Source of the DNA: Microbacterium limosum
GTDB taxonomy: Bacteria; Actinomycetota; Actinomycetes; Actinomycetales; Microbacteriaceae
Assembly (NCBI RefSeq): GCF_036324365.1
Contig: NZ_CP137080.1
Coordinates: forward strand, 1,178,001-1,242,000
Length of the DNA stretch: 64,000 nucleotides
Reading direction: 5' to 3'
Shown here one piece after another: positions 44,184 to 62,115 of this stretch (position 1 is the first letter of the stretch; every line of letters begins with the position of its first letter). The position numbers were made by a program, and so were the translations under genes. The notes under the pieces are model-generated. The model did not search any database. It was not told where the DNA came from and saw only the letters and a list, made by a program, of their open reading frames with translations.

Positions 44184-44196
44184 CCCTCACACGACG

Positions 44197-44455: not shown

Positions 44456-44680
44456 ATGAGCGACGACCGCCCCCGCCTCTGGACTCCGCAGGAGCTTGCG
44501 GAGTACACGGGCATCCCGATCAGGACGCTCGCTGACTGGCGGACAGAGCGTGCGCGCAGCCGAGGTCTCGGGTTGCCGTTCGTCGCACTCTCGTCGCACA
44601 ACGTCCGTTACCGCGATGAGGATGTCGAGGCGTTCATCGCGCGGCGGATCGTGGCTCCGACGGATAGGGCGGGCGACTGA
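44456..44680 (+). CDS. Excisionase-like helix-turn-helix protein
   Basis: A 74-residue MerR/HTH_17-type DNA-binding protein: LWTPQELAEYTGIPIRTLADWRTER forms the winged HTH and VRYRDEDVEAFIARR closes it. The start ATG 44456 is chosen because the upstream in-frame stretch is unrelated low-complexity sequence. Its last base overlaps the first base of the integrase start (TGATG), so the two are coupled, as in Xis-Int pairs. Confidence 0.85.
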   Translation: MSDDRPRLWTPQELAEYTGIPIRTLADWRTERARSRGLGLPFVALSSHNVRYRDEDVEAFIARRIVAPTDRAGD

Positions 44681-47082: not shown

Positions 47083-47727
47083 CTACAGCCGCGGGGCGTT
47101 GCCCGGCGGCGCGGCCGGAGGCGTCATGGGGACGAACGGGATCGCGGGCTCACGCCCCGCGCCCTCCCGTGATCCGAGGTTCGGTTGGTAGGCGCGGACG
47201 GTCTCGACTGTCAGCTCGACGCGCTCGGACTCTGACGCGGCGGGCTCAGGTGCCGGTTCGTCCTGCATCGCGGCGAGCTGGGACTCGACGCGGGCGAGGT
47301 CTTCCTCGGCGTCGGCGAGGGCCTGAGCGTGGCGGAAGGGCTGGCCGAGGCGCTGCTGGGTGTCGGCGACGGTCTGCTCTGCTTCTTCCAGGTCTTCGCG
47401 GGCCTGGTCGAGGAGGGAGGGGATGCCGCTGACGCGGTTCTCGATGCGCTGCACGAGTCCGAGCCCGGCCTCCAGGAACGACTCCTTCGGCATCGTGAAT
47501 CCCGAGCGGGGCACCTCGGGCAGGGATACGGTCACATCGAGGGCGGCGAGCCCGGAGCGGGCCTCGACGTGGATGTCGAAGCCGGAGATGCGGCCGATGA
47601 TCCCGAAGTCCTTGTGCCCGTACCGCGGCAGCCACTTCAGCCCGGAGTCGCCCATCCACGCGGCGAGGGCGTGGGCGGCTTCGGAGCGGGAGATCGTGCT
47701 GTTCGGATGGTCGATGGGTGCGGCCAT
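47083..47727 (-). CDS. C-terminal remnant of an ICE-type helicase/DNA-methylase protein
   Basis: The 214-residue frame looks like the tail of the very large (about 1,800-2,000 aa) helicase-methylase proteins of actinobacterial conjugative elements: RIENRVSGIPSLLDQAREDLEEAE, GQPFRHAQALADAEEDLARVE and a Pro-rich end. Residues 1-12 (MAAPIDHPNSTI) are an accidental extension across a recombination joint, because the same bases encode the alpha/beta hydrolase on the plus strand. The helicase and methylase motifs are missing, so it is probably non-functional. Its stop is two bases from the toxin stop (convergent). Confidence 0.65.
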   Translation of the reverse strand: MAAPIDHPNSTISRSEAAHALAAWMGDSGLKWLPRYGHKDFGIIGRISGFDIHVEARSGLAALDVTVSLPEVPRSGFTMPKESFLEAGLGLVQRIENRVSGIPSLLDQAREDLEEAEQTVADTQQRLGQPFRHAQALADAEEDLARVESQLAAMQDEPAPEPAASESERVELTVETVRAYQPNLGSREGAGREPAIPFVPMTPPAAPPGNAPRL

Positions 47728-48166
47728 CGCGCTCCAGCTCGCTCACCACCCGTCGTATCGGCGCAGCATCGCAGGTCTCGTGCTCGACTCGCCTGTGCTC
47801 GACTGGGCGGAAGTTATCAAAGCGAACTGTGCCCGCAGCGGACTCCCCGTAGCAGCGGGCAGCCTCGCGATCCCGTGGCTGACGCTCCGCCCGCTGGCCC
47901 ACATGGTCGGCCTGCCCGAGCGCATCCCACTCCGGTCCTTCGACTGGACGGTTCGTGCCGAGGAACTCACCGCGCCCACGCTCATCCTTCACGGCACCCA
48001 CGACGACTCCGTACCGATACGGCTCTCACAAGCACTCCGAGATGCTCGGCCTGGTCTTGTGTCACTGGAGGTCTTCGAAGCAGGACACACGCTCTCGTGG
48101 AACTCTGACCCCGACCGATGGCAGAGCGCGGTGATCGCCTGGCTCGCCGCGCACGTCCCGTCCTGA
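47687..48166 (+). pseudogene. Alpha/beta hydrolase, 5'-truncated
   Basis: The frame carries the second half of an alpha/beta hydrolase: nucleophile elbow FGWSMGAAIALQLA, catalytic Asp region ILHGTHDDSVP and His in EAGHTLSWN, ending properly at 48166. The N-terminal 100 or so residues with the oxyanion loop are absent; upstream bases belong to the opposite-strand remnant. An ATG at 47714 could start a 150-residue product but it would begin after the nucleophile Ser's strand, so a working enzyme is unlikely. Confidence 0.75.
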
Positions 48167-48313: not shown

Positions 48314-48523
48314 ATGGCGGAACCTTGGCTGTCTGCCGACGACATCGCGAACCATCTCGGCATCACGAAAGACACGGTGTACGCCTGGATCGCCGAGAAG
48401 GGCATGCCCGCGCACAAGATCGGTCGGCTGTGGAAGTTCCAGGTCAGCGAGGTCGACGAGTGGGTGCGGCGTGCGGGCGCGTCGGATACCGACAGTTCCG
48501 ACTCGACGCGGGGGCGGGGCTGA
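48314..48523 (+). CDS. HTH regulator of the defence operon (excisionase/MerR-type)
   Basis: A 69-residue winged HTH: WLSADDIANHLGITKDTVYAWIAEKG then HKIGRLWKFQVSEVDEWVR. Such HTH_17 proteins are common first genes of restriction or DISARM-like operons. GAGGTGAGGAG lies three bases before ATG 48314. Its stop is immediately followed by the GTG of the helicase gene (TGA-GTG), so translation is coupled. It is likely an autoregulator that delays expression after transfer, which is inference. Confidence 0.8.
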   Translation: MAEPWLSADDIANHLGITKDTVYAWIAEKGMPAHKIGRLWKFQVSEVDEWVRRAGASDTDSSDSTRGRG

Positions 48524-51500
48524 GTGCGAATCATCGACAACGTCAACGAGCTGCTCGGAGACGACCTGAAGGCCGAGATCAGGCCGGGATCGCGCCTGCG
48601 CATCGCGGCCTCGACGTTCTCGATCTTCGCGTTCGAGGCGCTAAAGAAGGAACTCTCGCAGATCAAGGAACTGGAGTTCATCTTCACCGCTCCTGCGTTC
48701 AATGCTGCGAAGGCGACGGACAAGCCCACGCCGGAGCGCCGTCAATTCGAGGTACGTCACGGCACCGAGTCGACCCTCTACGGGTCTGAGTTCGAGATCC
48801 GGCTGCGGAACAAGCTTACGCAGCGCGCCATTGCCCGCGAGTGCGCGGAGTGGGTACGTCAGAAGGTGACATTCCGCTCCAATCGCACGGGTGCGCCGAT
48901 GCAGCCACTCGCCGCCGTGGGTGACGCCGCGGCGTACTTCCCGATCCAGGGATTCACCACAGCGGACCTCGGCTACGAGCGCGGCCCAGCGACCTCGAAC
49001 TACGTCCCGAAGTTCGAGGGGGCGAACGAGACCCGCCAGTTCGTCCAGCTCTTCGATCAGATCTGGCACAACCCTGAGCAGCTCGACGACGTGACGCAGA
49101 CCGTCTACGACCACATCGCGTCGGTCTACGCCGAGAGTTCGCCGCAGCGGGTCTACTTCCTGATCCTCTACAACCTGTTCAGCGAGTTCCTCGACGACAT
49201 CAACGAGGACGTGCTGCCGAACGACCTCACCGGCTACCAGGACACCGCGGTCTGGAACGCCCTCTACAACTTCCAGAAGGACGCGGCGACCGGCGTCATC
49301 AACAAGCTGGAGACCTACAACGGCTGCATCCTCGCCGATAGCGTCGGGCTCGGGAAGACGTTCACCGCGCTCGCGGTCATCAAGTACTACGAGCTGCGGA
49401 ACAAATCGGTGCTCGTGCTCGCGCCGAAGAAGCTCGCGGAGAACTGGACGAACTACAACGCGAACCTGACGAGCAACATCTTCGCCAAGGATCGCTTCAA
49501 CTACGACGTGCTCGCCCACACCGACTTGTCGCGCGAGTCGGGGGAGTCGCTTGGCGTCCCCCTCGACCGCGTGAACTGGGGCAACTACGACCTGGTTGTG
49601 ATCGACGAGTCGCACAACTTCCGCAACGCCGACTTCACGAGCGAGAAGGAGACCCGCTACCAGCGTCTGATGCGCAAGGTGGTGCGCGAGGGCGTGAAGA
49701 CCAAGGTGCTGATGCTCTCGGCGACGCCGGTGAACAACCGCTTCAATGACCTGCGCAACCAGCTCGCCCTCGCCTACGAAGGCGATTCCGCCCAACTCGC
49801 GGCGAAGCTAAACATCTCCACGACCGTGGAGGAAGTCTTCCGTCAGGCGCAGCGCGCGTTCAACGAATGGTCCGACTTGCCGACGGAGGAACGCACCCCG
49901 GATGCAATCCTGTCTCGGCTCGACTTCGACTTCTTCGAGCTGCTCGACTCGGTGACCATCGCGCGCTCCCGCAAGCACATCCACGCCTTCTACGACACCG
50001 CGGACATCGGGGCCTTCCCTGAACGTCTCCCGCCGCAGTCCGTGCATGCCCCGCTGACAGACCTGCCCGATGCGCCGACGTTCAACGAGATCTTCGACCA
50101 GCTCCAGTCGCTCAAGCTCGCGGTCTACGCGCCGCTCGCCTACGTCTTCCCCAGCCGTGTAGAGAAGTACGAGCTGCTCTACGGGAACGTCGGGGGTGGG
50201 CGCAACCTCGCCGGAGGCGCGGTGGCGAATCTCGGCGCGGCCAGCCGCGAAAAGGGCATCCAGAAGCTGATGACCGTGAACCTCCTGAAGCGGCTGGAGA
50301 GCAGCGTGGAGGCGTTCCGGCTCACGCTCCAGCGGCTGGAGGGCACGGTCGCGGAGGCGCTGGAGGCGATTGACGACCATGCGAGCGCGGTGACCGATGT
50401 GGCCTCCAGCCTTACCGATCTGGACGCCGATGACGACGACTTCGACTTCCCGACCAGCGGCACGGTCGGCAAGAAGGTGCAGATCGACCTCGCCGACATG
50501 GATGTCGAGTCGTGGAACCGCGACCTGTCCCACGACGGCCTGGTCATCTCGCGCCTGCTCGCGTCCATCGAGGCGATCACCCCGGAGCACGATCTGAAGC
50601 TCCACCAGCTCAAGCGGCTGATCGAGGCGAAGTTCGCCGAACCGATCAACCCCGGCAACAGGAAGGTGCTGATCTTCTCGGCGTTCGCCGACACCGCGGG
50701 ATACCTCTATCGGGAGTTGAGCCCGGTGCTGAAGCAGCATGGATACGACTCGGCGCTCGTGACGGGGCAGGGCAACCCAAGCACCACGCTCGGCAAGGGG
50801 TATGGCTTTCAGCAGACCCTCACGCTGTTCTCCCCGCGCTCGAAGCAGCGGCATCTGGTGCTGCCGCGGGAGGCCGCCGAGCTGGACGTGCTCATCGGCA
50901 CGGACTGCATCAGCGAGGGCCAGAACCTCCAGGACTGCGACTACCTCGTCAACTACGACATCCACTGGAACCCGGTGCGGATCATCCAGCGATTCGGCCG
51001 TATCGACCGCATCGGCTCGACCAACGAGCGCATCCAGCTCGTCAGCTTCTGGCCCGACATCTCCCTGGACGAGTACATCAACCTGAAAGAGCGGGTCGAG
51101 AACCGCATGGTCATCGCCGACCTCGCGGCGACCGCCGACGACAACGTGCTCACCCAGGAGGCCAGCGACACTGCGTTCCGCAAAGAGCAGCTCCGCAAAC
51201 TCCAGGAGGAGGTCATCGAGCTGGAGGACGTGCGCACCGGCATCTCCATCACCGACCTCGGGCTCAACGATTTCCGTATGGACCTGCTCGGGTACATCAA
51301 GGAGTACGGCGACCTGGCAAACACCCCCAAGGGCCTGCACGCCGTCGTTCCCGCGCAGCCCGACAAGGGCCTGAAGCCGGGCGCGCTCTTCGCGCTGCGG
51401 AACATCAACGCCGACGAGATGCTCCACCGGGGCAACCGCCTGCACCCGCATTACCTCGTCTACCTCGACGACGAGGGCAAGGTCATCGCAGACCACACCG

Positions 51501-51796
51501 AGGTGAAATACCTGCTCGACCTGATCCGCGCCGGGTGCCGCAACCGGGACGAGCCCGCCTGGGAGGTCTGCCGAGTCTTTAACGCGGCGACCCGCGACGG
51601 CGCCGAGATGCGCAAGTACAGCGACCTGCTCACCGCAGCGATCCGCTCCATGATCGACGTGACCGAGGAACGCGACATCGACAGCCTGTTCAGCCCCGGC
51701 CACACCACCGCCCTCGTGCAGACCATCGCCGGTCTCGACGACTTCGAGCTGATCGCTTTCCTCGCCATCGTCGAGGAGGAGGCGCTCAGTGGTTGA
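48524..51796 (+). CDS. SNF2-family helicase (type III R-M-associated, PLD-like N-terminus)
   Basis: A 1,090-residue protein. The first 130 residues (SRLRIAASTFSIFAFEALKKEL...) resemble a phospholipase D-like fold, but I do not see the full HxK motif, so it may be inactive. The helicase core has Walker A DSVGLGKTFTA (about 268-278), DESH (IDESHNF, about 361), SATPVNNRFND and the C-lobe motif QRFGRIDRIGS (about 822). SNF2/RapA-type enzymes move along or remodel DNA. It starts at GTG 48524 right after the regulator stop and overlaps the DUF4391 gene by eight bases. Likely a DNA-translocating partner of the R-M core (inference). Confidence 0.85.
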   Translation: MRIIDNVNELLGDDLKAEIRPGSRLRIAASTFSIFAFEALKKELSQIKELEFIFTAPAFNAAKATDKPTPERRQFEVRHGTESTLYGSEFEIRLRNKLTQRAIARECAEWVRQKVTFRSNRTGAPMQPLAAVGDAAAYFPIQGFTTADLGYERGPATSNYVPKFEGANETRQFVQLFDQIWHNPEQLDDVTQTVYDHIASVYAESSPQRVYFLILYNLFSEFLDDINEDVLPNDLTGYQDTAVWNALYNFQKDAATGVINKLETYNGCILADSVGLGKTFTALAVIKYYELRNKSVLVLAPKKLAENWTNYNANLTSNIFAKDRFNYDVLAHTDLSRESGESLGVPLDRVNWGNYDLVVIDESHNFRNADFTSEKETRYQRLMRKVVREGVKTKVLMLSATPVNNRFNDLRNQLALAYEGDSAQLAAKLNISTTVEEVFRQAQRAFNEWSDLPTEERTPDAILSRLDFDFFELLDSVTIARSRKHIHAFYDTADIGAFPERLPPQSVHAPLTDLPDAPTFNEIFDQLQSLKLAVYAPLAYVFPSRVEKYELLYGNVGGGRNLAGGAVANLGAASREKGIQKLMTVNLLKRLESSVEAFRLTLQRLEGTVAEALEAIDDHASAVTDVASSLTDLDADDDDFDFPTSGTVGKKVQIDLADMDVESWNRDLSHDGLVISRLLASIEAITPEHDLKLHQLKRLIEAKFAEPINPGNRKVLIFSAFADTAGYLYRELSPVLKQHGYDSALVTGQGNPSTTLGKGYGFQQTLTLFSPRSKQRHLVLPREAAELDVLIGTDCISEGQNLQDCDYLVNYDIHWNPVRIIQRFGRIDRIGSTNERIQLVSFWPDISLDEYINLKERVENRMVIADLAATADDNVLTQEASDTAFRKEQLRKLQEEVIELEDVRTGISITDLGLNDFRMDLLGYIKEYGDLANTPKGLHAVVPAQPDKGLKPGALFALRNINADEMLHRGNRLHPHYLVYLDDEGKVIADHTEVKYLLDLIRAGCRNRDEPAWEVCRVFNAATRDGAEMRKYSDLLTAAIRSMIDVTEERDIDSLFSPGHTTALVQTIAGLDDFELIAFLAIVEEEALSG

Positions 51797-52460
51797 ACAT
51801 GTCGAAACCAGACCCGTGCTGTACCGGTGGCCGCCCGCCGCACAGTTCGGCCGCGTGGTGCCGAAGACGAAGTTCTACGAGCACGGCAACGTGCGCACCG
51901 CGCTGCGCGAGAAGTTCGTCGAGGATGTCCAGCGCATCACCTGGGCCTACAAGCTCGCGGAGTCCACTATCCGGCTGAAGGGCACGGAGGCAGTTCCGGA
52001 GATCCAGGTGTTCGCCGTCGAAACCAAAGGCGGCGAGGTCCCCGACGACGTGCTCGCCGCGATCGACAAGTCCGTGCACTTCCCGATCCTCTTCGAGATC
52101 AGCAAGGGCGAGGAGGTGCGCACGGTCGCCGCGCAGAAGACGCTCGGCGGCAGCACCCCGAAGCTCGGCACCTACTTCAGGACGGACTGGCTTCCCGCCG
52201 CCGCTGACCGCCAGCCGCTCCCGGCAGCCATCGACCTTCCTGCACTCTATGAGTCGCTGCTCACGTCGCTGCTCCCCGTGGCGACACGCCGAGGGGAGTC
52301 CGTGTCGGATGCCACCGGGAGAATGGACAGAGCCCGGACGCTCGAACGCGAGATTGCCGCACTGGAGCGGAAGCTCCGCAACGAGCCCCAGCTTAACCGC
52401 AAGGTCGAGCTACGCAAAGCACTGAAGGAACGCCAGGCCGCACTCGCAGGACTGGTGTGA
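51789..52460 (+). CDS. DUF4391 domain protein
   Basis: A 223-residue protein with PKTKFYEHGNVRTALREKFVEDVQRITWAYKL in two conserved blocks at the N-terminus, the core IQVFAVETKG...IDKSVHFPILFEI, and a C-terminal Glu/Lys/Arg coiled coil (about residues 185-220). DUF4391 proteins are regularly encoded between a SNF2 helicase and type III Mod/Res genes; their function is unknown. GTG 51789 lies within the helicase gene's end; Mod starts nine bases after the stop. Confidence 0.85.
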   Translation: MVEHVETRPVLYRWPPAAQFGRVVPKTKFYEHGNVRTALREKFVEDVQRITWAYKLAESTIRLKGTEAVPEIQVFAVETKGGEVPDDVLAAIDKSVHFPILFEISKGEEVRTVAAQKTLGGSTPKLGTYFRTDWLPAAADRQPLPAAIDLPALYESLLTSLLPVATRRGESVSDATGRMDRARTLEREIAALERKLRNEPQLNRKVELRKALKERQAALAGLV

Positions 52461-52469
52461 GAGGGAGAG

Positions 52470-54560
52470 ATGACGAAGCCGGACAAGCTGGAGCTGCAGT
52501 CAGCCGACGTGACGCGCAAGAACATCGAGGCGCTGGCGGCGCTGTTCCCACACATCGTCACCGAGGGCCTGGACGACTACGGCAACCTCGTTCACCAGGT
52601 CAACTTCGAGGCGCTTCGGCAGGAGCTGAGTGATTACGTCGTCGAGGGCAAGGAGGTCTACCAGATCGACTGGCCGGGCAAGCTTGCCGCCGAGTTCGCC
52701 TCGAACGCTCCCATCGAGAAGACGTTGCGCCCGAACCTCGCGGACTCCGTCGACTTCGACACCACGAAGAATCTCTTCATCGAGGGTGACAACCTCGAAG
52801 CGCTGAAGCTGCTCCAGGAGTCGTATCTTGGCAAGGTTCGCCTCATTTATATTGATCCGCCGTACAACACCGGAGGCGACCTCGTCTACCGTGACGACTT
52901 CTCCTCGTCGACGCAGGAGTTCCTCTGGAAGTCGAGGCAGGTCAACGAGGTCGGCGAGAAGCTCGTGTCGAACACGGAAGCGAACGGTCGCTTCCATTCG
53001 GACTGGCTGAGCATGATCTACCCGCGGCTGCGGCTGGCGAAGCGTTTCCTTGCCTCGGACGGCGTGATCCTGGTCAGCATCGACGATGCCGAGCAGGCAT
53101 CGCTCCGTCGCCTGATGGACGAGGTCTTCGGGGAGCAGAACTTCATCGCACAGCTTGTGTGGGAGAAGGGGCGCAAGAACGACGCGAAGTTCTTCTCCGT
53201 TGGACATGAGTACCTCGTGGTGTATGCGAAGTCGAAGTCCTCCTTGCGCGAGCAGAACACGTCGTGGCGCGAGGAGAAGCCGGGAGCGCGCGAGGTCTGG
53301 GACGAGTATCTGCTTCTCCGCGAGGCGCACGGCGCAGATGACGGGGCCGTCGAGCAGGCGTTGACGGAGTGGTACAAAGGACTCCCGAAGAGCCATCCGG
53401 CAAAGAAGCTCGCCCGAACAAGGCATATCGACGCGAACGGACCGTGGCGTGATGACAACATCTCGTGGCCCGGAGGCGGTGGGCCGCGTTACGACGTGAT
53501 CCACCCGGTCACAGGGCAACCGTGCGCCGTACCGGAAGCGGGTTGGCGCTATGGCGAGGACGAGATGAAGCGTCGCATCGCGCTGGGGCTCATCGTGTTC
53601 CGTGACGACCACACTCAGCCGCCCTTCCGAAAGTCGCACCTACGTCCGATCGCGGGCGAGGTGGACGACGTTGACGATGAGGGCGGCGAGGACACCGGGC
53701 TCGCCGTTCAAGTTCGCGGAAGCTACTTCTACAAGCAGTCCCAGGTTTCCGTTCGGCACCTTCGCAATCTCATGGGTGCGCAGGTCTTCAACAACCCTAA
53801 AGACCACGAAGTGCTGTCTCGCCTCTTCGAATACGTCCTTGGCGGCAAGGGCGGTGTCGTCATGGACTTCTTCGCAGGTTCGGCCACCACGGCCGAGGCC
53901 GTTTTCGATCTCTGTGCCCGCACCGGGCTCAACTGCCCGGTGATCCTCGTGCAGCTCCCGGAGCTGCTGGAGGACAACCTCAAGTCGGCGACCGGTTCGG
54001 CGAAGACAACGATCCAGAACGCGATCAAGCTCCTTCAGGAGCTCGACAAGCCGCTCAACATCGCCGAGCTGACCAAGATCCGCATCCAGAGGGCCGGTGC
54101 GCAGGTCCTGGCGGATCGCAAGCCCTCGGAATGGAACGGCGACATCGGGTTCCGCGCGTTCACCATCGACACGAGCAACTTCACGGACATCACCACCACC
54201 CCCGACGCCGCTGACCAGGAGACTCTGCTCGACCTCGTCGAGAGCGTCAAGACCGACCGCAGCGGTCTGGACGTCCTGTTCGAGGTGATGATCGCATGGG
54301 GGCTCAACCTCGCCGCGCCGATCAACATCGAGACCCTCGAGGGGCGCGAGGTCTACTCCGTCGAGGATGGCGCCCTGCTTGCCTGCTTCGATGACCGGCT
54401 CGATGAGGCGCTGATCCGGGCGCTCGCGCTGCGCGCCGCAGCGGACACCACGCAGAAGGTTGTCTTCAAGGACACCGGATTCGCCTCGGACGACGCGGCG
54501 ATCAACGCGCACCAGGTGTTCGAGCAGCTCTCGCCTGACACGACGGTCAAGGTGATCTGA
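52470..54560 (+). CDS. Type III restriction-modification DNA adenine methyltransferase (Mod)
   Basis: N6-adenine methyltransferase of the beta class with recognition function for the type III complex. In 696 residues the catalytic DPPYNTG motif is at 129-135 and precedes the SAM-binding DFFAGSATT (466-474), the beta order. SDWLSMIYPRLRLAK and VSIDDAEQASLR are further type III Mod signatures. The recognition domain lies between the motifs, so the site cannot be predicted. The start ATG 52470 follows GAGAGGGAGAG. Res starts four bases after its stop. Confidence 0.95.
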   Translation: MTKPDKLELQSADVTRKNIEALAALFPHIVTEGLDDYGNLVHQVNFEALRQELSDYVVEGKEVYQIDWPGKLAAEFASNAPIEKTLRPNLADSVDFDTTKNLFIEGDNLEALKLLQESYLGKVRLIYIDPPYNTGGDLVYRDDFSSSTQEFLWKSRQVNEVGEKLVSNTEANGRFHSDWLSMIYPRLRLAKRFLASDGVILVSIDDAEQASLRRLMDEVFGEQNFIAQLVWEKGRKNDAKFFSVGHEYLVVYAKSKSSLREQNTSWREEKPGAREVWDEYLLLREAHGADDGAVEQALTEWYKGLPKSHPAKKLARTRHIDANGPWRDDNISWPGGGGPRYDVIHPVTGQPCAVPEAGWRYGEDEMKRRIALGLIVFRDDHTQPPFRKSHLRPIAGEVDDVDDEGGEDTGLAVQVRGSYFYKQSQVSVRHLRNLMGAQVFNNPKDHEVLSRLFEYVLGGKGGVVMDFFAGSATTAEAVFDLCARTGLNCPVILVQLPELLEDNLKSATGSAKTTIQNAIKLLQELDKPLNIAELTKIRIQRAGAQVLADRKPSEWNGDIGFRAFTIDTSNFTDITTTPDAADQETLLDLVESVKTDRSGLDVLFEVMIAWGLNLAAPINIETLEGREVYSVEDGALLACFDDRLDEALIRALALRAAADTTQKVVFKDTGFASDDAAINAHQVFEQLSPDTTVKVI

Positions 54561-54564
54561 ACAG

Positions 54565-57500
54565 ATGAAACTGCACTTCAAGGTTCAGGAGTATCAGACC
54601 GCCGCCGTGCACGCCGTCGTGGACTGCTTCCGTGCCGTGCACCGACAGCCGTTCGCCGACAACATCACCTACAAGATCGACCCTGGTCGCACGACCGGCC
54701 GACGCGGCCTGCCCGAACTGGATCACCGCGTCGACGAGGCCGCCGCCGGGACGGGCTACGGCAACAGTGCCCTGCTCCTGAACCCGGCGCAGCTTCTCGA
54801 CAACATCCACGCGGTGCAGCGTCGCACGAGCGGGCTCCCGCTCTCAGGCGAGCTGATTGCGAGCCCGGCGGCTGGACTGAACCTCGATATCGAGATGGAG
54901 ACCGGCACAGGCAAGACCTACGTCTATATCAAGACGATCATGGAGCTTCACCGGCAGTTTGGCTGGTCGAAATTCGTCGTCGTCGTCCCGAGCGTTGCGA
55001 TTCGTGAGGGCGTGAAGAAGTCCTTCGAGATCACCGCCGACCATTTCCTCGCCGAGTACAAGACGCAGGCCAGGGCCTTCGTCTACGACTCCGAGCATCT
55101 CGAAGACGTTGAGACCTTCTCGTCCGACACCGGCATCCAGGTCATGATCATCAACGCGCAGAACTTCAACCGGGACGCGAAGAAGGCCGACCAGGATTCT
55201 GCCGAGAGCGGCAAGTCGTCGGGCCTGAAGATGTTCAAGGCACTCGACGGATTCAAGTCCCGTCGCCCCATCGACGTGATCGCCGCCAACCGGCCGATCC
55301 TCATCATCGACGAGCCGCAGCGTCTTGGCAGTAACCCGTCGAAGCCCAGCGAGACGCTGAAGGCGCTCGGACGGTTCAACGCACTCTTCGCGCTCCGGTA
55401 CTCCGCGACCCACGCCATCGAGCACAACAAGGTCCACAGGCTCGATGCCCTTGATGCCTACAACAAGAAGCTCGTCAAGAAGATTGCCGCACGCGGTATC
55501 AGCGTGAAGGGGCTCGCGGGGAGCAGCGCGTACTTGTACGTCGATGGTCTGGAACTCGGAAAGGGGGCCGACTTCCCGAAGGCTCGTATCGAGATTCAGC
55601 ACCAGCCGAAGAACGGGCCCATAACGGCGAAGACATTCAGGGTAAAGCAGGGCGACCGGCTCCACGACATCTCGGGCGGCATCGAAGCGTACAAGGGGCT
55701 CGTCATCGACGTTGTCGACGCGATCGCCAACACCGTCAGCCTCCTGGACGGGCAGGTGCTCCAGGGCGGTCAGGTCACCAACGATGTCACCGACGAACAG
55801 AAGCGACGGCTACAGATCCGCGAGGTCATCCGCGCCCACCTCGACAAGGAGCGACAGCTCTTCGGTCACGGCATCAAGGTGCTCTCGCTCTTCTTCATTG
55901 ACGAGGTGCTGAAATACCGCGACTATGACCAGCCCGACCGGCTGGGGGAGTACGCCCGCGTCTTCGAGCAGGAGTACGAAGCCCTCAAGGCCGAGCGGCT
56001 CAGCGAACTCGACCTTGACGAATCAGGAGCGGCATACCGCACGTTCCTGGAACGCGATGCGGTACGCGACATCCACAACGGCTACTTCTCCGTTGACAAG
56101 AAGACCGGGCGCTGGGTCGACAGCGATGCCTCTGACGCATCCGATGAGAAGGGCAAAGGGCTGTCGAAGGATGCCGAGGCATACGACGCCATCCTTCGGG
56201 ACAAGGAGAAGCTCCTCGACCGCGACTACCCGCTCCGCTTCATCTTCAGCCACTCCGCTCTCCGGGAGGGCTGGGACAACCCGAACGTGTTCACGCTCGG
56301 ATTCCTCAAGAAGGCCACCGCGGGCGACTCCCGCCGCCAAGAAGTCGGGCGCGGTCTCCGTCTAGCCGTCGACCACAATGGCGACCGAACCGACAACCCG
56401 GTGACCGTCCACGACATCAACGTTCTGACTGTCGTGACCGAGGAGTCCTACGTCGACTTCGTTGCAGGGTTCCAGAAGGAGACGCTGGGCCTCCTCAGCG
56501 CGCGGCCGCGGAAGGCGACGCCCGAGTTCTTCGTCGGGGCGGTCCTGCGCGACGCCATCGCTGGCACCGAGCACAAGATCACGCTCGATGAAGCGAAGCA
56601 GCTCCAGCACTGGCTCATCAAGCACGACTTCGTCGACCACGACCAGCACCTCACCGACCTGTGGCTCGGCCGCGCCGACCTCCCCGAGATCCCCGCGATG
56701 CCGCCCGCGCTCCAGCCGTACTTTTACCAGGTCGCAGAGCTGATCGACTCGCTGCATGTCCGCGCCCCAAAGATCGACGACGGACGCAAGGCGAAGGTCG
56801 TGCCGATGAACAAGGCCAACTTCAACAAGAAGGAGTTCCAGGAGCTCTGGGCGCGAATCAACCACCGCGTTGTGTACCAGGTCGCGTTCGACTCTCAGGA
56901 ACTCATCGACAACTGCACCCGAGTCCTCGACACGTCGCTCGAAGTAGCCCGACTCCAGTACGTCGTGACCGAAGGGGTTCAGCGTGATGTCATCGAGGCG
57001 GAGCACCTGGAGGCCGGAGAGAGCTTCAAGATGACCCGCACGAAGTCGTCGGAGTCGACACTCAGCGCAAGCTCCACGGTGTCCTACGACCTGATCGGCG
57101 AGATCGCTGAAAAGACGAAGCTCACCCGTCGCACCGTGGCGACCATCCTCCGCGGGGTCAGGCCCTATACGTTCGAGAAGTTCAGGCAAAACCCTGAGCA
57201 GTTCATCACCGAAGCGGCCCGCCTCATCCGCGAACAAGCCGCGGCAACGATGGTCGAGCACATCGAATACGACATTCTCGATGACCGCTACGACGCATCC
57301 ATCTTCACCGAGAACCAGACTGCTCAGGATCTGTCGAAGGCCGTGCATACGCCCAACAAGAACGTCTATGAGTACGTCCTCGACGATTCGCAGGTCGAGC
57401 GCGACTTCGGCGCAGCTCTCGACATCAGTCAAGAGGTGTCTGTCTTCACGAAGCTCCCACGCGGCTTCAAGATCCCGACCCCGCTCGATGACTACAACCC

Positions 57501-57723
57501 CGACTGGGCGATTGCCTTCCAGGAGGGCGCCGTCAAGCACGTCTATTTCGTCGCCGAGACCAAGTTCTCCCTCTCATCGTTGGAGCTGCGCGGCGCGGAG
57601 AAGGCGAAGATCGACTGCGCCAACAAGCTCTTCGAGAGGCTCGACCAGGTGGCCGGCACGCCGGGCATCAGGTACCACGGTGTGACCAGTTACGACCATC
57701 TGCTGCAACTCGTAGGGGCGTAG
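54565..57723 (+). CDS. Type III restriction enzyme, helicase/endonuclease subunit (Res)
   Basis: A 1,052-residue DEAD-type ATPase with nuclease tail. Walker A is ETGTGKT (112-118), motif II is DEPQ (249-252, in place of the common DEPH), and the helicase C-lobe has LREGWDNPNVF and RRQEVGRGLRLAV. The C-terminal PD-(D/E)XK site is NPDWAIAF (D980) and VAETK (E998, K1000). All catalytic parts look intact, so the enzyme should cut DNA with Mod. Stop and next start are five bases apart. Confidence 0.95.
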   Translation: MKLHFKVQEYQTAAVHAVVDCFRAVHRQPFADNITYKIDPGRTTGRRGLPELDHRVDEAAAGTGYGNSALLLNPAQLLDNIHAVQRRTSGLPLSGELIASPAAGLNLDIEMETGTGKTYVYIKTIMELHRQFGWSKFVVVVPSVAIREGVKKSFEITADHFLAEYKTQARAFVYDSEHLEDVETFSSDTGIQVMIINAQNFNRDAKKADQDSAESGKSSGLKMFKALDGFKSRRPIDVIAANRPILIIDEPQRLGSNPSKPSETLKALGRFNALFALRYSATHAIEHNKVHRLDALDAYNKKLVKKIAARGISVKGLAGSSAYLYVDGLELGKGADFPKARIEIQHQPKNGPITAKTFRVKQGDRLHDISGGIEAYKGLVIDVVDAIANTVSLLDGQVLQGGQVTNDVTDEQKRRLQIREVIRAHLDKERQLFGHGIKVLSLFFIDEVLKYRDYDQPDRLGEYARVFEQEYEALKAERLSELDLDESGAAYRTFLERDAVRDIHNGYFSVDKKTGRWVDSDASDASDEKGKGLSKDAEAYDAILRDKEKLLDRDYPLRFIFSHSALREGWDNPNVFTLGFLKKATAGDSRRQEVGRGLRLAVDHNGDRTDNPVTVHDINVLTVVTEESYVDFVAGFQKETLGLLSARPRKATPEFFVGAVLRDAIAGTEHKITLDEAKQLQHWLIKHDFVDHDQHLTDLWLGRADLPEIPAMPPALQPYFYQVAELIDSLHVRAPKIDDGRKAKVVPMNKANFNKKEFQELWARINHRVVYQVAFDSQELIDNCTRVLDTSLEVARLQYVVTEGVQRDVIEAEHLEAGESFKMTRTKSSESTLSASSTVSYDLIGEIAEKTKLTRRTVATILRGVRPYTFEKFRQNPEQFITEAARLIREQAAATMVEHIEYDILDDRYDASIFTENQTAQDLSKAVHTPNKNVYEYVLDDSQVERDFGAALDISQEVSVFTKLPRGFKIPTPLDDYNPDWAIAFQEGAVKHVYFVAETKFSLSSLELRGAEKAKIDCANKLFERLDQVAGTPGIRYHGVTSYDHLLQLVGA

Positions 57724-57728
57724 CCGGG

Positions 57729-59195
57729 ATGGTCATCGAGCTGTACTTCTCGCAGCATTTCGGGGTTTCGCCGAAGGTACTGCAGGACTACGGCGCGTTC
57801 GATGTCAGCCTCGCGTCCGATCTGCCGCTCTTTGTCGACCCTTTCCTGCTCTTCAACAGCAAGAAGCAGGAGTACCGCGATCTCCATGACGGAATGATTC
57901 GGTACCTCCTCTTCCTGCGCGACCGAGCCACTCCCGATCTCGATCTGGGGCTCATCAGGTCCTGGTACATGTTCCAGGAGGTTAAGCAGAACTGGCTCGG
58001 ATTCACCGTCCTCGGCAACTCGGGGACCGGACTCGGCAAGGAGTTCGCCCGCGCGCTCCACAGCTCCCTCGGTTCCATCCTGAAAGGGTTCGGCGAAGAA
58101 TCGATCACCAAGGGCGCCCACCTGGAGAAACTCGCGCTCATCAAGGAGGGTGTCGGACGTGACAACATCAGCGACTTCACCACGAACCTGATCAAGGGTT
58201 ACCTGCTGGAGTACACGCAGGCCTTCGCTCAGAAGCATCTGTCGGCCGATCAACGCGGGACGTTCTCGGTCACCCGCGCTGCTTTCAACTACGAGACCGA
58301 GACGTGGGAGTCGCGCCAGTACGAGCTTCCCGCGCTTCGTGGAGACTACGTCCTGCTCACCCCGGCTGACATGCTCACCAAGGATGACACCTGGATCAGC
58401 CGCTCGGACCTCGTGCGCGAGTTCAGCAGCATCCCCGACGCCATCGAAGATGATGAGCTTCGCGCACAGGTCAACAATTACCTCTTCAAGAAGCTGAGCG
58501 ACAGCCCCACGAAGAAGGAGTACTCGGACCTCGCGGCGGCGGCGATCCTCCAGTTCCCAGAGCTCATCGACTACTACATCCGTCAGAAGGAGAACACCGG
58601 GGAGCAGGCAGTCGGCCTGAGCGCACAACGGCGGCAGGAGGTCTTCGAGATTCTCGTGCAGATGGTGCAGAAGGTCGTCGAAGACATCCGCACCAACACC
58701 TCGCTGTACCTGACGCCGGTCACCAGCTACGACGAGGCGCTGACCCGCGCCAACGGATTCAAGAAGTACGTCGAGAACCAGGACGGCTACCGGCTCCTCA
58801 ACAAGCCCGGCCAGGAACGCCCCCTCGCCACGGAGAAGGAGGTCCAGCTCTTCTTCGGCCTCATCTTCTTCGGCAGCGAGTTCGACGTGAACCGCGAGGT
58901 CAACAACGGGCGCGGTCCCGTGGACTTCAAAGTGAGCAAAGGAGCCGTCGACAAGTCGCTGATCGAGATCAAGCTTGCCAGCAACAGCCAACTGAAGCGG
59001 AACCTCCAGAACCAGGTCGAGGTCTACGAGAAGGCGAACGGCACGCGCAACTCGGTCAAGATGATCGTCTGCTACACGGAGGCGGACGTGGCGAAGGTCG
59101 ATTCCGTCCTGAAGGAGCTGGATCTCGGCGGCGAGAAGTCCATCGTCGTCATCGACGCGCGCGCGGACAACAAGCCCTCGGGCTCGAAGGCATAA
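57729..59195 (+). CDS. Unrecognised protein with C-terminal PD-(D/E)XK nuclease-like domain
   Basis: I do not recognise a named family for this 488-residue protein. The N-terminal 350 residues are helical and mixed (starts MVIELYFSQHFGVSPKVLQDYG). The C-terminal third contains GRGPVDFKVSKG (D399), IEIK (E413, K415) and a following NQVEVYEKA helix, with an upstream EKEVQLFFGLIF helix: the alpha-beta-beta-beta-alpha-beta order of PD-(D/E)XK restriction folds. It is separated from Res by five bases and from the AAA gene by 15, so it is part of the operon. It may be a second DNA-cutting effector or a regulator of Res. Nuclease activity is inferred. Confidence 0.6.
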   Translation: MVIELYFSQHFGVSPKVLQDYGAFDVSLASDLPLFVDPFLLFNSKKQEYRDLHDGMIRYLLFLRDRATPDLDLGLIRSWYMFQEVKQNWLGFTVLGNSGTGLGKEFARALHSSLGSILKGFGEESITKGAHLEKLALIKEGVGRDNISDFTTNLIKGYLLEYTQAFAQKHLSADQRGTFSVTRAAFNYETETWESRQYELPALRGDYVLLTPADMLTKDDTWISRSDLVREFSSIPDAIEDDELRAQVNNYLFKKLSDSPTKKEYSDLAAAAILQFPELIDYYIRQKENTGEQAVGLSAQRRQEVFEILVQMVQKVVEDIRTNTSLYLTPVTSYDEALTRANGFKKYVENQDGYRLLNKPGQERPLATEKEVQLFFGLIFFGSEFDVNREVNNGRGPVDFKVSKGAVDKSLIEIKLASNSQLKRNLQNQVEVYEKANGTRNSVKMIVCYTEADVAKVDSVLKELDLGGEKSIVVIDARADNKPSGSKA

Positions 59196-59210
59196 GGCGG
59201 TTCAGCAGCG

Positions 59211-61493
59211 ATGCTTCAGTACCTTCGGCTGCGCGGTGCCCCCGCCTTCGACCCGGCATCCGGTACAGACATCGGCCCGCTCAAGCCGGTGAACTTCTTC
59301 TTCGGGTCCAACGGCTCCGGCAAGACGACGATCAGCCGCGCCTTGGCCGACTCGACGCGGTTCACGGGAACCACCTTGGAGTGGAACCCAGCGACCAGCG
59401 TGCTCGGCATCAAGGTCTACAACCGCGACTACGTCAATGCGACGCTCACGCCCGCAGGCCACCTGGCTGGCGTGTTCCTCCTGGGCGAGACGAACGCTGA
59501 GATCCAGACCGAGATCGAATCGCTGACAGGACCGAGTGGTTCCATCGCCGCTGCCAAAGAAGGCCTTGCGGGACTCCGCGCCTCGTTGGACGCAAAGAAC
59601 GGTGAGATCGATGGTGTCCGTACCGCGCTGAAGGAGGCGGCGTGGGCGAAGCGCAATGACGTCCCTGCAGAACTGCGTGAGATGTTCACGGGGTACAACA
59701 ACAGCAAAGATCGGCTTCTGGACCGACTGCTCGAAGTCGCGGCGGCGAACCTCTCCGCCTCCGAGGACTTCACGGCGCTTACCTCCGAGGCAGCAGCAGT
59801 TCTCGCGGAAGATGCGCAACCGCTCCTGGAGCTGCCGCTTGGACGCGACATCAGGATCGAAGACGCGCCGGGCCACTCTCTCTTGGGCGCGGCAGTCGTG
59901 GGTAGCGGGGATGTGCGCCTCGCGCCTCTTATCCAGCAGCTCGGCAACGCCGACTGGGTTCAGCATGGTCGTACCCATCTCGAACACGCGAACGGTGTCT
60001 GCCCGTTCTGCCAGCAGACCGTTCCATCCGACCTCGGTGAGCAATTGGAGGCGTACTTCGACCGGACCTACGTCGAGCAGATGGAACAACTGTCGGCCCT
60101 CAACCAGCACTTCGAGTCCTGGGCGCAGCAGTGGACGACCTATCTCGATGATCTGCCAGCGAAGCCGGGCGTCGCCGAGCACCTCAATGCCGAACGGCTA
60201 GCGACCGCGCGTGCTGCGTTGGAGCTGGTGATCGCTGAGACCCGAGCACAGCTGAGCGCAAAACTGTCCGGGCCGTCGAGCATCCTCTCGGTGCCCGATC
60301 CCTCGCCGCAGGCAGAAGGCGTCAACGCCGTTGTTCGGGAGGCCAACACGGCAATCCAGGGCTTCAACCTTCTCATCAGGAACCGATCAGCCGCGAGGAA
60401 GTCGCTTCTCGACCGCTGCTGGGTCGTGTTCGCCCGGGTGACCCTCGTCGCCGAACTCGCCCGCTATGAGGGAGCGATGCCTGGTCACCTGACGGGGAAG
60501 GAAAGCATCGAAGGGCAGATCGTGTCGGCGACGGCGGACATCCGCGCCAAAGAGTCGCGCCTCCGCGAGCTTCAGGCGAAGGTCACATCAAGCAAGCCGA
60601 TCATCGACCGCATCAACCGCCTCTTGGATTCCGTCGGCTTCCATTCCTTCTCACTGGCGGAGTCGACAGCAGTTCAGGACGGTTACACCCTCGTCCGCTC
60701 GAACGGCGACGTCGCAACGGAGACCCTCAGTGAAGGCGAGCGGACATTCATCACCTTCCTCTATTTCGCTCAGTCGCTACATGGCTCGCCGCAGGATGAA
60801 GCCGAGCCGAATGATCTCCTGGCGGTGATCGACGACCCGATATCAAGCCTCGACAGCGATGTGCTGTACGCCGTCTCCACCCTTGTCCGCAGGCTCGTCG
60901 AGGATGTCGCAGCAGGCACAGGCCGAGTGCGGCAGCTCCTGCTCATGACGCACAACGCTCACTTCCACAAGGACGTGACCTATCGCCCGCACGGCGGCCC
61001 GAAGCTCGGGTCTTGGAAGTACGGTGTCGTGCGGAAGCGAAGCGGGCAGTCGAGCGAAGTCGAGCTACGCGACGACAACCCGATCCAAACCGCCTACGGT
61101 GCCCTGTGGGACGAGGTCAAGAGGTCGGCCGAGCATCCCTCGGAGAGCGCAGTCGGCCTCCAGAACACCTTGCGTCGCATCCTGGAGACCTACTTCAAAG
61201 TGCTCGGCGGTGTCGACGATCCCGCCATCATTGCCAAGTTCGAGGGAGACGAGCAAGTCATCTGTCGCTCGCTCTTCACCTGGGTCAATGCTGGCTCCCA
61301 CTCGATCTTCGATGACCTCGACTACTCGCCGACGCCGAGCACCGTAGAGGCCAACCTCCGTGTGTTCCGCCGCATCTTCGAGGAGCACGGGCAGATCGGT
61401 CACTACCGCATGATGATGGGCGAGCCTGTAGAAGAAGTCTCTGCGGAGAATCAGGCGGTCGAGGTCGAGTCGGGGAGTGAAGCAATCGAATGA
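59211..61493 (+). CDS. RloC/PrrC-like ABC-type ATPase, candidate anticodon nuclease
   Basis: A 760-residue AAA_13-type protein. Walker A GSNGSGKTT (32-40), an ABC signature LSEGERTFITF, Walker B LLAVIDDPISSLDSD. A central coiled coil carries CPFC (264-267), the zinc-hook position of RloC. The C-terminal part has R655-x3-E659 in NTLRRILETYF and H697 in NAGSHS, the R...E...H pattern reported as the active site of PrrC/RloC tRNA anticodon nucleases. RloC genes are known to sit in R-M loci and act when DNA restriction fails. Start ATG 59211 is 15 bases after the previous stop. Confidence 0.75.
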   Translation: MLQYLRLRGAPAFDPASGTDIGPLKPVNFFFGSNGSGKTTISRALADSTRFTGTTLEWNPATSVLGIKVYNRDYVNATLTPAGHLAGVFLLGETNAEIQTEIESLTGPSGSIAAAKEGLAGLRASLDAKNGEIDGVRTALKEAAWAKRNDVPAELREMFTGYNNSKDRLLDRLLEVAAANLSASEDFTALTSEAAAVLAEDAQPLLELPLGRDIRIEDAPGHSLLGAAVVGSGDVRLAPLIQQLGNADWVQHGRTHLEHANGVCPFCQQTVPSDLGEQLEAYFDRTYVEQMEQLSALNQHFESWAQQWTTYLDDLPAKPGVAEHLNAERLATARAALELVIAETRAQLSAKLSGPSSILSVPDPSPQAEGVNAVVREANTAIQGFNLLIRNRSAARKSLLDRCWVVFARVTLVAELARYEGAMPGHLTGKESIEGQIVSATADIRAKESRLRELQAKVTSSKPIIDRINRLLDSVGFHSFSLAESTAVQDGYTLVRSNGDVATETLSEGERTFITFLYFAQSLHGSPQDEAEPNDLLAVIDDPISSLDSDVLYAVSTLVRRLVEDVAAGTGRVRQLLLMTHNAHFHKDVTYRPHGGPKLGSWKYGVVRKRSGQSSEVELRDDNPIQTAYGALWDEVKRSAEHPSESAVGLQNTLRRILETYFKVLGGVDDPAIIAKFEGDEQVICRSLFTWVNAGSHSIFDDLDYSPTPSTVEANLRVFRRIFEEHGQIGHYRMMMGEPVEEVSAENQAVEVESGSEAIE

Positions 61494-61693
61494 CCGACAT
61501 CCCCAGGGGGCTGACCTCACGCCAGGAGATCGTTGAAATCGACATCTTCGACAGGCTCAGCGGGTCGATCCGTGACGCACTCCTCGCAGAGTTGTCGCAC
61601 AAGCCGGAGCACAAGATCATCTCCCTGTCGATCACGTCCTACAGCGAGTTCGCCACGAGCTACCGTGCGGTCGCCGTCATCGAGTACCTGTAG
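61490..61693 (+). CDS. Small hypothetical protein, 67 aa
   Basis: I do not recognise it. It starts at ATG 61490 in ATGA overlap with the RloC-like gene, so translation is coupled and the two products may be made in fixed ratio. The sequence is slightly acidic with a helical first half (RQEIVEIDIFDRLSGSIRDAL) and a beta-like second half (KIISLSITSYSEF...YRAVAVIEYL). There is no membrane segment or Cys. It could be a partner or inhibitor of the ATPase, which is speculation based only on the overlap. Confidence 0.6.
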   Translation: MTDIPRGLTSRQEIVEIDIFDRLSGSIRDALLAELSHKPEHKIISLSITSYSEFATSYRAVAVIEYL

Positions 61694-61698
61694 GCATC

Positions 61699-62115
61699 GT
61701 GGGCAAGCGCGCCGACAGTGATGAGCACTACGTTCTCGACCTCTGCGACGAGGTGATCGGGGCCCGCGGGGAGCGACAGGCGACGTTCCTGTGGCTTGTC
61801 GGTGAGGTGTCGCCGACGACCGGACGGGCTCGCAGGCTCCCCGTCGACGGGTATTGGCCTGCGCTGGGGCTCGTCGTCGAGTTCCAGGAGAAGCAGCACA
61901 CCGCGGCCGTCCCGCTGTTCGACCGTCGCGCGACCGTCTCCGGCGTGCCCCGTGGCGAGCAGCGGCGGCTCTACGACCAGCGAAACGCGGAGATCCTGCC
62001 GCAGCAGGGTATCCGGCTCGTCGTGATCCACGAGTCGGAGTTCACGACCAAGACCGACAGGATCGTGCGCGATCATGAGCGCGACATCGCCGTCGTCCGC
62101 GCCCGCCTCGTCTGA
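61699..62115 (+). CDS. Vsr/PD-(D/E)XK-like small nuclease candidate
   Basis: A 138-residue protein. LPVDGYWPALGLVVEFQEKQH gives D50 and E61 with Q63/E64/K65, followed by GEQRRLYDQRNAEILPQQGIRLVVI; this order (Asp, Glu-x-x, R-x-x-YD-x-R, then GIRLVVI strand) resembles Vsr/DUF559-type endonucleases. The catalytic Lys is not certain. GTG 61699 is five bases after the preceding stop. It is the last gene of the operon before the relaxase, 105 bases on. Related small proteins occur singly in other genomes, so its link to the operon may be loose. Confidence 0.55.
   Translation: MGKRADSDEHYVLDLCDEVIGARGERQATFLWLVGEVSPTTGRARRLPVDGYWPALGLVVEFQEKQHTAAVPLFDRRATVSGVPRGEQRRLYDQRNAEILPQQGIRLVVIHESEFTTKTDRIVRDHERDIAVVRARLV

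Follow-up and report, generated by a model that had tools for sequence, protein, structure and literature searches.

A helicase- and DUF4391-extended type III restriction-modification operon in Microbacterium limosum with a probable slot for exchangeable second-line effectors

Introduction

When nine genes follow one another on a single strand with hardly a base between them, do they form one defence system, or a conserved core followed by genes that differ from strain to strain? The question is raised by the open reading frames A to I of Microbacterium limosum, at positions 48314-62115 of a window of 64,000 nucleotides, this being the whole stretch of DNA analysed (assembly GCF_036324365.1, contig NZ_CP137080.1, positions 1,178,001 to 1,242,000, forward strand). 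The initial annotation had read them as a single functional system in which restriction would be followed by tRNA cleavage. The reading preferred here, with a probability of about 0.65, is that an extended type III restriction-modification (R-M) core would carry, directly behind the stop codon of Res, a slot for exchangeable second-line effectors. Type III R-M enzymes require ATP and two inversely oriented unmethylated sites for cleavage.

Layout of the locus and loci compared

An ORF check bore out the nine frames and their tight spacing: all lie on the plus strand with intergenic gaps of 0 to 15 bases, and the pairs B/C and G/H overlap (Table 1). Third-position GC is 0.78-0.91 across all nine frames, H included. 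A scan for promoters and terminators returned 0 and 6, respectively, against 1.3 and 9.5 in shuffled sequences, and hence nothing above shuffles. The comparison set comprised 79 loci collected through DUF4391; tail genes were counted in the 62 loci that include the end of Res and extend 900 bases or more past it.

Table 1. Features of the operon and its neighbours (positions in the window).
Feature	Position	Strand	Assignment	Match or remark
Alpha/beta-hydrolase-like ORF	47360..48166	+	Neighbour outside the system	
A	48314..48523	+	Short HTH protein, probable core regulator	HTH_17, E 4.6e-15
B	48524..51796	+	SNF2-type helicase/translocase	SNF2-rel_dom, Helicase_C; PADLOC HKD+Snf2
C	51789..52460	+	DUF4391 protein	Pfam E 4.4e-48
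D	52470..54560	+	Mod, type III DNA methyltransferase	N6_N4_Mtase, E 1.9e-23
E	54565..57723	+	Res, type III restriction subunit	ResIII + RE_endonuc
F	57729..59195	+	Predicted nuclease, PD-(D/E)XK-like; exchangeable tail gene	PADLOC candidate PDC-M36A
G	59211..61493	+	RloC-type ABC ATPase (zinc hook, anticodon-nuclease triad); exchangeable tail gene	
H	61490..61693	+	Orphan ORF of 67 aa, overlaps the end of G	Membership not supported
I	61699..62115	+	138-aa protein	More likely a gene of the mobile element around it
MobF/TrwC relaxase gene	62221..63999	+	Neighbour outside the system	Runs past the window to about 64086

A conserved core of type III restriction-modification

To judge by their domains and order, A to E are the conserved core of an extended type III R-M system. 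D carries DPPY at residue 129 and FAGS at 468 and matches PADLOC MTase_III (E 3.6e-195), while E carries GTGKT, DEPQ and a C-terminal PD...E-T-K, matches REase_III (E 1.4e-280) and has EcoP15I Res as its sole match among PDB sequences (E 8.2e-64). The pair thus presents the sequence features of a type III enzyme, namely amino-methyltransferase motifs in D and an SF2 helicase with a C-terminal PD-(D/E)XK nuclease in E. B and C each occur in 79 of the 79 loci, C having been the selection criterion, D in 77 and E in 70; blastp recovered relatives of A in 40, a count that is too low because A is short. The A-E order recurs across phyla, and B to E were present in four of four further relatives. 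The labels first given to these genes are therefore upheld, HTH by the HTH_17 match and SNF2 helicase, DUF4391, Mod and Res by their Pfam matches, and the helicase-DUF4391-Mod-Res core is a genuine one that recurs in this order.

The core is itself a mosaic: in one locus (L085) the figures are 91% for Res and 71% for the helicase, in another (L092) 61% for Res and 84% for the helicase, and the trees of the two proteins conflict in their clades. Despite the PADLOC HKD+Snf2 match, the HxKx4D motif is absent from B. Among the open-access papers searched, DUF4391 appeared in one, as a table row (PMC7784981). Two known systems were considered and rejected. For MADS, A scored 73.4 bits against MAD1 (cut-off 80), mad2 did not match D, and mad3 and mad8 matched G only weakly; for DISARM, DrmD scored 139 against a cut-off of 610, and the other Drm models matched B alone, among many helicases.

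A variable tail behind the Res stop codon

Homologous operons whose last four genes are swapped or absent had been named beforehand as the observation that would speak against a single nine-gene system, and such operons were found among the 62 loci. A long F stands behind Res in five of them, G in two and H in none, and I appears as partial ORFs only, in two. The order F-G-H-I was sought in the other loci of the 79 and found in none, and the four further relatives of B to E held none of F to I in the stretches compared. Because the tail genes are exchanged or missing in this way, the proposal of a single system is not supported.

In 27 of the 62 loci a long gene begins next to the Res stop codon, at an offset between -3 and +22 in 26 of these 27 and at exactly -3 in seven, which suggests translational coupling to res and not a loose neighbourhood. 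The remaining 35 loci have no such gene, so that the slot is often empty. Of the 27 loci with a tail gene, all but three could be placed in families, which number eight: F-type nucleases, SIR2, two kinds of GmrSD, HEPN-like proteins (a weak label, the score lying under the Pfam cut-off), OLD/Gabija-like proteins, AAA_13/RloC-type proteins and RecD-like proteins. The GmrSD proteins are of the HEC-05 and HEC-06 kinds, HEC standing for 'Hma-embedded candidate'. A control with random positions gave 814 of 3100 (26%) against 27 of 62 (44%) at the Res stop and is non-discriminating, since start codons inside long ORFs were counted too; what speaks for the slot are the offsets and the families. Gene content, motifs, recurrence and exchange are direct observations, and on this comparison the tail is a set of predicted, interchangeable back-up effectors varying between strains, a mix-and-match arrangement and not a fixed nine-gene machine.

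The tail genes F and G

G matches AAA_13 (Pfam E 1.6e-142) and PADLOC PDC-S06. The hallmarks of RloC given in passages of Davidov and Kaufmann (2008; PMC2610378) are ABC motifs, a CXXC hook and a triad R-X3-E-X36-52-H. In G the ABC motifs G-x-N-G-x-G-K-T and LSEGE are kept in seven of seven aligned rows, and both the zinc hook C264-P-F-C267 and the triad R655, E659, S696-H697 (X37), located in the C-terminal part, are invariant in all seven. By these hallmarks G is of the RloC type and a putative tRNA anticodon nuclease, and the earlier RloC/PrrC-like label holds at the level of motifs. The triad pattern has one further chance match in G, at 254, which is not conserved.

F is a candidate PD-(D/E)XK nuclease. 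An E-x-K pair (E413, K415) is nearly invariant in ten aligned rows, of which one (L130) lacks the G-R-G-P-V-D stretch, whereas the Pfam match is sub-threshold (PDDEXK_9, E 0.036, 14.5 bits, cut-off 25.5); PDC-M36A is matched over residues 28-248 with 60.9 bits. Besides the five long copies, F occurs behind Res as a 135-aa fragment in one locus (L040). The idea that F is the toxin of an RmrA-type pair was rejected: an RmrA-type gene lies directly upstream of F in L128, and no relative of that gene came up by phmmer in the ten other F-context loci.

G is present directly behind Res in L034 and behind F in L041. Measured against the G and Res of the window, G is 88% identical in the former, where Res is at 61%, and 71% identical in the latter, where Res is at 89%. 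For F the values are 89% with Res at 57% (L062) and 71% with Res at 83% (L030); given this discordance, both genes move separately from Res. Relatives of both are found without the A-E core in many contexts. Among 296 genomes of the class, five besides the source genome gave weak partial matches to G.

H, I and the carrying mobile element

H overlaps G by 4 bases and I lies 5 bases from H, a spacing with which co-transcription with G is possible. H found no family in Pfam, PADLOC or NCBIfam profile searches and no relatives in plasmids or at the 62 Res ends; in 149 genomes it had one borderline match besides itself (E 0.046), and in L034 other DNA stands behind G in its place. For I, once labelled a Vsr-like nuclease, that label is not confirmed: no Vsr model in Pfam matches it, and across seven aligned relatives the ExK lysine is missing from the conserved acidic motif. 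It has no Pfam family at E 0.1 and no PADLOC family at E 0.01, and its one NCBIfam match is to a primosomal-protein model (20.6 bits, cut-off 921). The relaxase gene follows I, and relatives of I are found on plasmids in which the core was not seen; I and the relaxase gene more likely belong to the mobile element carrying the operon. One plasmid relative of I adjoins a DNA methyltransferase gene.

The whole operon is located in a shared cargo site of the element, and the C-terminal 159 residues of the alpha/beta-hydrolase-like ORF reappear immediately before the core in eight loci. A search for element ends found no exact direct repeats of at least 13 bases between 43.9-46.5 kb and 65.7-72.0 kb. 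The left flank (42500-44200) had no close match outside the source genome in 38 genomes, and therefore no empty site was found.

Proposed working and alternative explanations

From here we infer activities, their order and any control by the core. Mod would mark self DNA and Res would cut unmarked DNA, with the SNF2 translocase and the DUF4391 protein as their near-constant partners. The site just past the Res stop would be an exchange point receiving different second-line defence genes in each strain, in M. limosum the predicted nuclease F and the RloC-type G. Restriction would be the first line of defence; should a phage escape or block it, or DNA breaks accumulate, G might be switched on and cut tRNA, so that translation stops, and F may attack nucleic acid as a further predicted effector. 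Restriction first, with tRNA cleavage as back-up, is thus a plausible order.

Independent single-gene defences might simply have gathered behind res, at a spot where the mobile element tolerates insertion, without functional link. The tail genes do resemble stand-alone defence families, F and G have relatives in many contexts and the operon sits in a cargo site, but the narrow offsets, with their suggestion of coupling to res, make this explanation rather unlikely. It is more doubtful still that the core silences the tail effectors in the manner of EcoprrI and PrrC, with Mod-Res or SNF2-DUF4391 releasing the effector when restriction is blocked. PrrC offers a precedent in type I R-M (passages of PMC2610378 and PMC12707154) and the tail genes begin a few bases from the Res stop; however, a single core would need to keep eight unrelated families in check, F and G have relatives without A to E, RloC has a zinc-hook switch of its own (PMC2610378), and for RloC of Acinetobacter a response to DNA breaks has been reported (PMC12707154). 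One obligate machine with all nine products acting together is highly improbable: its ORFs are tightly spaced or overlapping, but the full set turned up a second time nowhere among the 79 loci, where F to I are for the most part missing or replaced, and relatives of F and G are found apart from the core.

Beyond the preferred reading of a core with an exchangeable slot, it could be speculated, with little confidence, that the extended core is a general surveillance platform that senses whether restriction has succeeded or failed and governs any effector in the res-coupled 3' slot. Its effectors would then, no less speculatively, include an anticodon nuclease, SIR2, a HEPN RNase, a modification-dependent nuclease and an OLD-type nuclease. 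If true, the EcoprrI-PrrC principle would be extended to an exchangeable-effector design.

Significance and comparison with known systems

These loci form a natural operon series in which one restriction core carries second-line genes of eight recognised families at one joint, or none, and therefore whether the R-M enzyme controls the effector or merely co-travels with it is directly testable by comparing tails. The operon also shows an RloC-type gene downstream of type III R-M within the cargo site of a mobile element, and DUF4391 gains a firm genomic context from the 79 loci.

With EcoP15I-like type III systems the operon shares the Mod-Res order, motifs and sequence; it differs in that an HTH gene, an SNF2 helicase and DUF4391 precede and exchangeable genes follow. 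According to excerpts of PMC2610378, eight of 72 RloC genes lie in type I or III R-M loci, and PrrC, an anticodon nuclease without zinc hook, is linked to EcoprrI, a type Ic system. G shares with RloC, as described there, the ABC motifs, CXXC hook, triad and size, but as a predicted nuclease it stands behind a helicase/DUF4391-extended type III core, where other strains have other effectors. With PrrC-EcoprrI it has in common an anticodon nuclease-type gene linked to R-M; PrrC lacks the hook and has a type I partner, whereas G has the hook and a type III partner.

The embedding of defence genes in other defence operons was reportedly treated in a 2024 preprint by Payne. Cases appearing in passages of PMC11411939 and PMC12255303 include TgvAB (PMC11411939) and DarTG2 (PMC12255303), each within a type I locus, BrxU with BREX, and HEC-05 and HEC-06 in Hma loci. 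As far as these passages go, the likeness consists in effectors inside a larger defence operon, GmrSD of the HEC-05/HEC-06 kind occupying the slot here too, and the difference in the host operon, an extended type III one with the slot at its 3' end. BREX loci, in passages of PMC12839542, link diverse auxiliary back-up nuclease effectors to one core; varied auxiliary effectors with a single core are thus common to both, the core itself being different.

Operon layout and gene labels

The nine ORFs (A, HTH protein; B, SNF2 helicase; C, DUF4391 protein; D, Mod; E, Res; F–I, the tail) all lie on the + strand at 48314–62115, as the initial annotation had it. The stop of A abuts the start of B (0 gap), B overlaps C by 8 bases, G overlaps H by 4, and the remaining distances are 9 (C–D), 4 (D–E), 5 (E–F), 15 (F–G) and 5 bases (H–I). 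Domain searches bore out the labels of A–E and G, lent weak support to the PD-(D/E)XK-like label of F, and gave none to the proposed Vsr-like nuclease I. The helicase, Mod and Res motifs are all intact in the window's proteins, and the sole PDB match to Res is EcoP15I Res. The PADLOC family of B is HKD+Snf2; the HxKx4D motif was not found in the window helicase, and a looser HxKx4[D/E/N] occurs within the first 240 residues of 1 of 70 helicase rows. Third-position GC is 0.78–0.91 across all nine ORFs, H included, so this 67-aa ORF may be coding.

A recurrent core

In a first survey the DUF4391 protein of the window was searched against 197 genomes of the class and matched in five, the window's own genome included. 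The four others all carry B–E, and three of them A; F–I are absent from the stretches fetched from these four, two of which are probably the same contigs as loci L072 and L086 of a wider scan. There, an alignment of five DUF4391 proteins was compared with 84,980 species, each represented by a single genome, and the best 80 of 90 matches gave 79 distinct loci, a sample selected by DUF4391. Judged by record title, Actinomycetota predominate; Deinococcota, Chloroflexi, Acidobacteria, Planctomycetes, Verrucomicrobia, Chlorobiota and Proteobacteria are also represented. In blastp with the window's proteins, helicase and DUF4391 were found in 79/79 of these loci, Mod in 77, Res in 70 and the HTH protein in 40, an undercount for so short a protein. 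In seven of the nine loci lacking Res the sequence stops at most ~750 bases past the last core gene; Res was not found in L087 and L103 although more sequence is present, so the core, real and widespread as it is, is not universal.

The tail does not fit the single nine-gene system that had been proposed: it is exchanged among loci, with F in 6/79, G in 2/79, I in 2 (partial) and H in 0/79 of the same sample. On a Mycolicibacterium vanbaalenii plasmid, A–E are followed 16 bases on by an 863-aa AAA ATPase (PDC-S06).

Two further features of the core were observed. Two long Mod genes stand in tandem in one operon in L029, L034, L040, L057, L060, L062, L069, L076, L077, L080 and L092, which suggests exchange of DNA specificity. 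A gene of ~550–581 aa lies between Mod and Res in L057, L060, L062, L069, L075, L076, L077, L080 and L086, making this interval a second insertion place.

The slot behind Res

Among the best 80 of 90 matches, 64 loci include the Res C-terminus, 62 of them with at least 900 bases past Res. A tail gene was defined as an ORF on the + strand, 250 aa or longer, with its start between −40 and +60 relative to the Res stop. Such a gene is present in 27 of the 62 loci, 26 times starting at −3 to +22 and seven times at exactly −3; in the other 35 no ORF of at least 250 aa adjoins the Res stop, with shorter or later genes in some, including a fragment of F in L040 and the caspase-domain gene of L042 and L044. 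Random positions gave 814/3100 (26%), a poorly discriminating control because start codons within long ORFs count, and the case is carried by the narrow offsets and the families (Table) rather than by this control. All these figures are loci, not events, since near-duplicates (L030/L031, L042/L044, L076/L077) are among them. The tail is a swap slot for predicted second-line genes. The position that G has in the window is taken by a HerA-like ATPase behind F in L030 and L031; nuclease–HerA pairs are known, and the combination in L030 recalls them.

Table. Features of the window and of compared loci (L-numbers denote homologous loci, plasmid stretches or, for L110, DNA right of the window). In slot families with a single scanned member, blastp placed the other.
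Feature	Locus	Coordinates	Remark
Tyrosine-recombinase-like integrase gene	window	44680-46002	
Split relaxase	window; L110	62221-64000; 1-2266	first ORF ends ~64086, second overlaps by 4 bases
Slot: F	L027, L030, L031, L041, L062		blastp; C-terminus of L027 copy diverges
Slot: GmrSD, HEC-06 kind	L035, L048, L051, L054		
Slot: GmrSD, HEC-05 kind	L047, L082		
Slot: HEPN-like	L055, L061, L067, L076, L077		Pfam Apea under cut-off in L055, L067; others by blastp clustering
Slot: SIR2	L029, L039		
Slot: G	L034		
Slot: AAA_13 (PDC-S06)	L056, L066		more distant than G
Slot: OLD/GajA-like	L088, L095		
Slot: RecD-like (PDC-S68)	L071		
Slot: unassigned	L075, L092, L100		SIR2 gene next in L100
F followed by HerA-like ATPase	L030	15903-19315	
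AbiEi-like gene after G	L034; L041	20156-20648; 19703-20431	antitoxin type
Caspase-domain gene	L042; L044	15833-16819; 16362-17348	third in tail; two near-identical mycobacterial-type loci
F relative after RmrA-type gene, Roseomonas plasmid	L128	7838-10470	9 bases 3' of RmrA-type regulator gene
Gene between Mod and Res	L057	14641-16386	Schlafen AlbA_2 and HATPase_c_4 domains
Fragmented core genes	L097	6686-15712	Ornithinimicrobium sp. INDO-MA30-4; several ORFs

Separate movement of modules

Identities to the window indicate that the modules move separately and that the core itself is mosaic. G is 88% identical in L034, where Res is 61%, and 71% in L041, where Res is 89%; F is 89% identical in L062 with Res at 57% (47–70% per 100 residues throughout), and 71% in L030 with Res at 83%. 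Across the 50 loci in which all four genes were of sufficient length, Spearman correlations of identity to the window are 0.72 for helicase–DUF4391, 0.59 for Mod–Res, 0.22 for helicase–Res and 0.40–0.47 for the other three pairs. In L085 Res (91%) is closer to the window than the helicase (71%); in L092 the reverse holds (84% for the helicase, 61% for Res). Quick trees were built from selected rows, 28 of Res and 29 of the helicase. The Res tree unites the window with L027, L085, L041, L030, L031 and L037 at support 100; this group was rejected when forced into the helicase tree (p-AU 6.7e-57), as was a helicase-based group forced into the Res tree (1.8e-65), values that overstate the conflict because the groups were picked after the identities were seen. 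The exchange joints are C|D and E|tail.

F relatives (tblastn) occur in 17 plasmid records, five neighbourhoods of which were read. Apart from the Roseomonas copy, F lies 3' of a type IIG-like methyltransferase, a helicase and a GIY-YIG gene (Paenarthrobacter), lacks an evident partner (Sinorhizobium), is divergent from a Septu-type ATPase (Janthinobacterium) or is partial (Bradyrhizobium). No RmrA-type gene turned up in any of the other 10 contexts of F, nor were A–E relatives present in six chromosomal stretches around F relatives. F is therefore a mobile unit whose partners change. G relatives were found in 154 plasmid records (tblastn), all at <60% identity; in the five neighbourhoods read, a type I R-M locus adjoins the G relative in one case, a type II pair is nearby in another, and the remaining three show neither.

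Genomic setting and genes H and I

The operon is flanked on the left by an alpha/beta-hydrolase-like ORF, found just 5' of the core in 8 loci, and on the right by a MobF relaxase gene, found 3' of the tail on the + strand in 6. GC per kilobase is 0.60–0.66 over 48–62 kb, against 0.67–0.75 per 2 kb in the rest of the window. The operon appears to be carried as cargo by an integrated mobile element, whose ends were not found and whose left part likely includes the integrase. The AAA_30 domain of the relaxase is divided between its two ORFs, whereas the L055 and L067 relatives are single ORFs, and the element may no longer be self-transferring. In L097, at the same site linked to the relaxase, the core is a decayed copy.

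Gene I is more likely part of this element. In L030 and L031 partial I ORFs directly precede the same relaxase; in L055, L061, L067 and L097 the relaxase is present downstream without I. Relatives of I occur in 12 plasmid records and in 3 other genomes among 198 searched. The A–E core is absent from the annotation of four plasmid neighbourhoods of I, one of which has mobF ~1.7 kb away; on plasmid L116 a DNA methyltransferase gene adjoins the I relative, which speaks mildly against this assignment. The DNA match between L034 and the window stops 23 bases past the G stop, and in L034, as in L041, an AbiEi-like gene takes the place of H and I.

Proposed mechanism and comparison with known systems

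Davidov and Kaufmann (PMC2610378) characterise RloC proteins, 658–897 aa long, by ABC-ATPase motifs, a zinc hook of the form CX2C and the triad Arg-X3-Glu-X36-52-His, in which Ser often precedes His. G, with 760 aa, has GSNGSGKT, CPFC, LSEGE and R655-x3-E659-x37-H697 with S696; 7/7 aligned rows share G-x-N-G-x-G-K-T, both cysteines, LSEGE and the whole triad without variation. At motif level the RloC/PrrC-like label stands, and by sequence G is an RloC.

Most likely, Mod–Res restricts unmodified DNA, with a putative helping role for SNF2–DUF4391. G would be kept inactive by its own ATPase and zinc-hook part until DNA breaks or failed restriction triggered it to cut tRNA, and F would contribute additional, predicted nuclease activity. 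Coupling of core and tail is favoured by the narrow joints, their independence by the stand-alone copies.

The nine genes do not form a fixed system, and the parts belong to known kinds; what makes the operon interesting is that a single extended type III core carries an exchangeable slot for second-line genes. No description of this arrangement was found in the open-access papers searched, which is weak evidence that it is new. The link between RloC and R-M is already documented, 8/72 RloC genes being counted within R-M loci of type I or III (PMC2610378). A HEPN survey (PMC3710099) describes RloC as unlinked to R-M systems but also places some RloC-like proteins near R-M genes, and proposes a multi-pronged defence of R-M and HEPN nucleases. 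As for the trigger, PMC2610378 proposes activation of RloC by DNA damage or by an altered associated restriction enzyme, and the Acinetobacter RloC is reported to be activated by double-strand breaks (PMC12707154).
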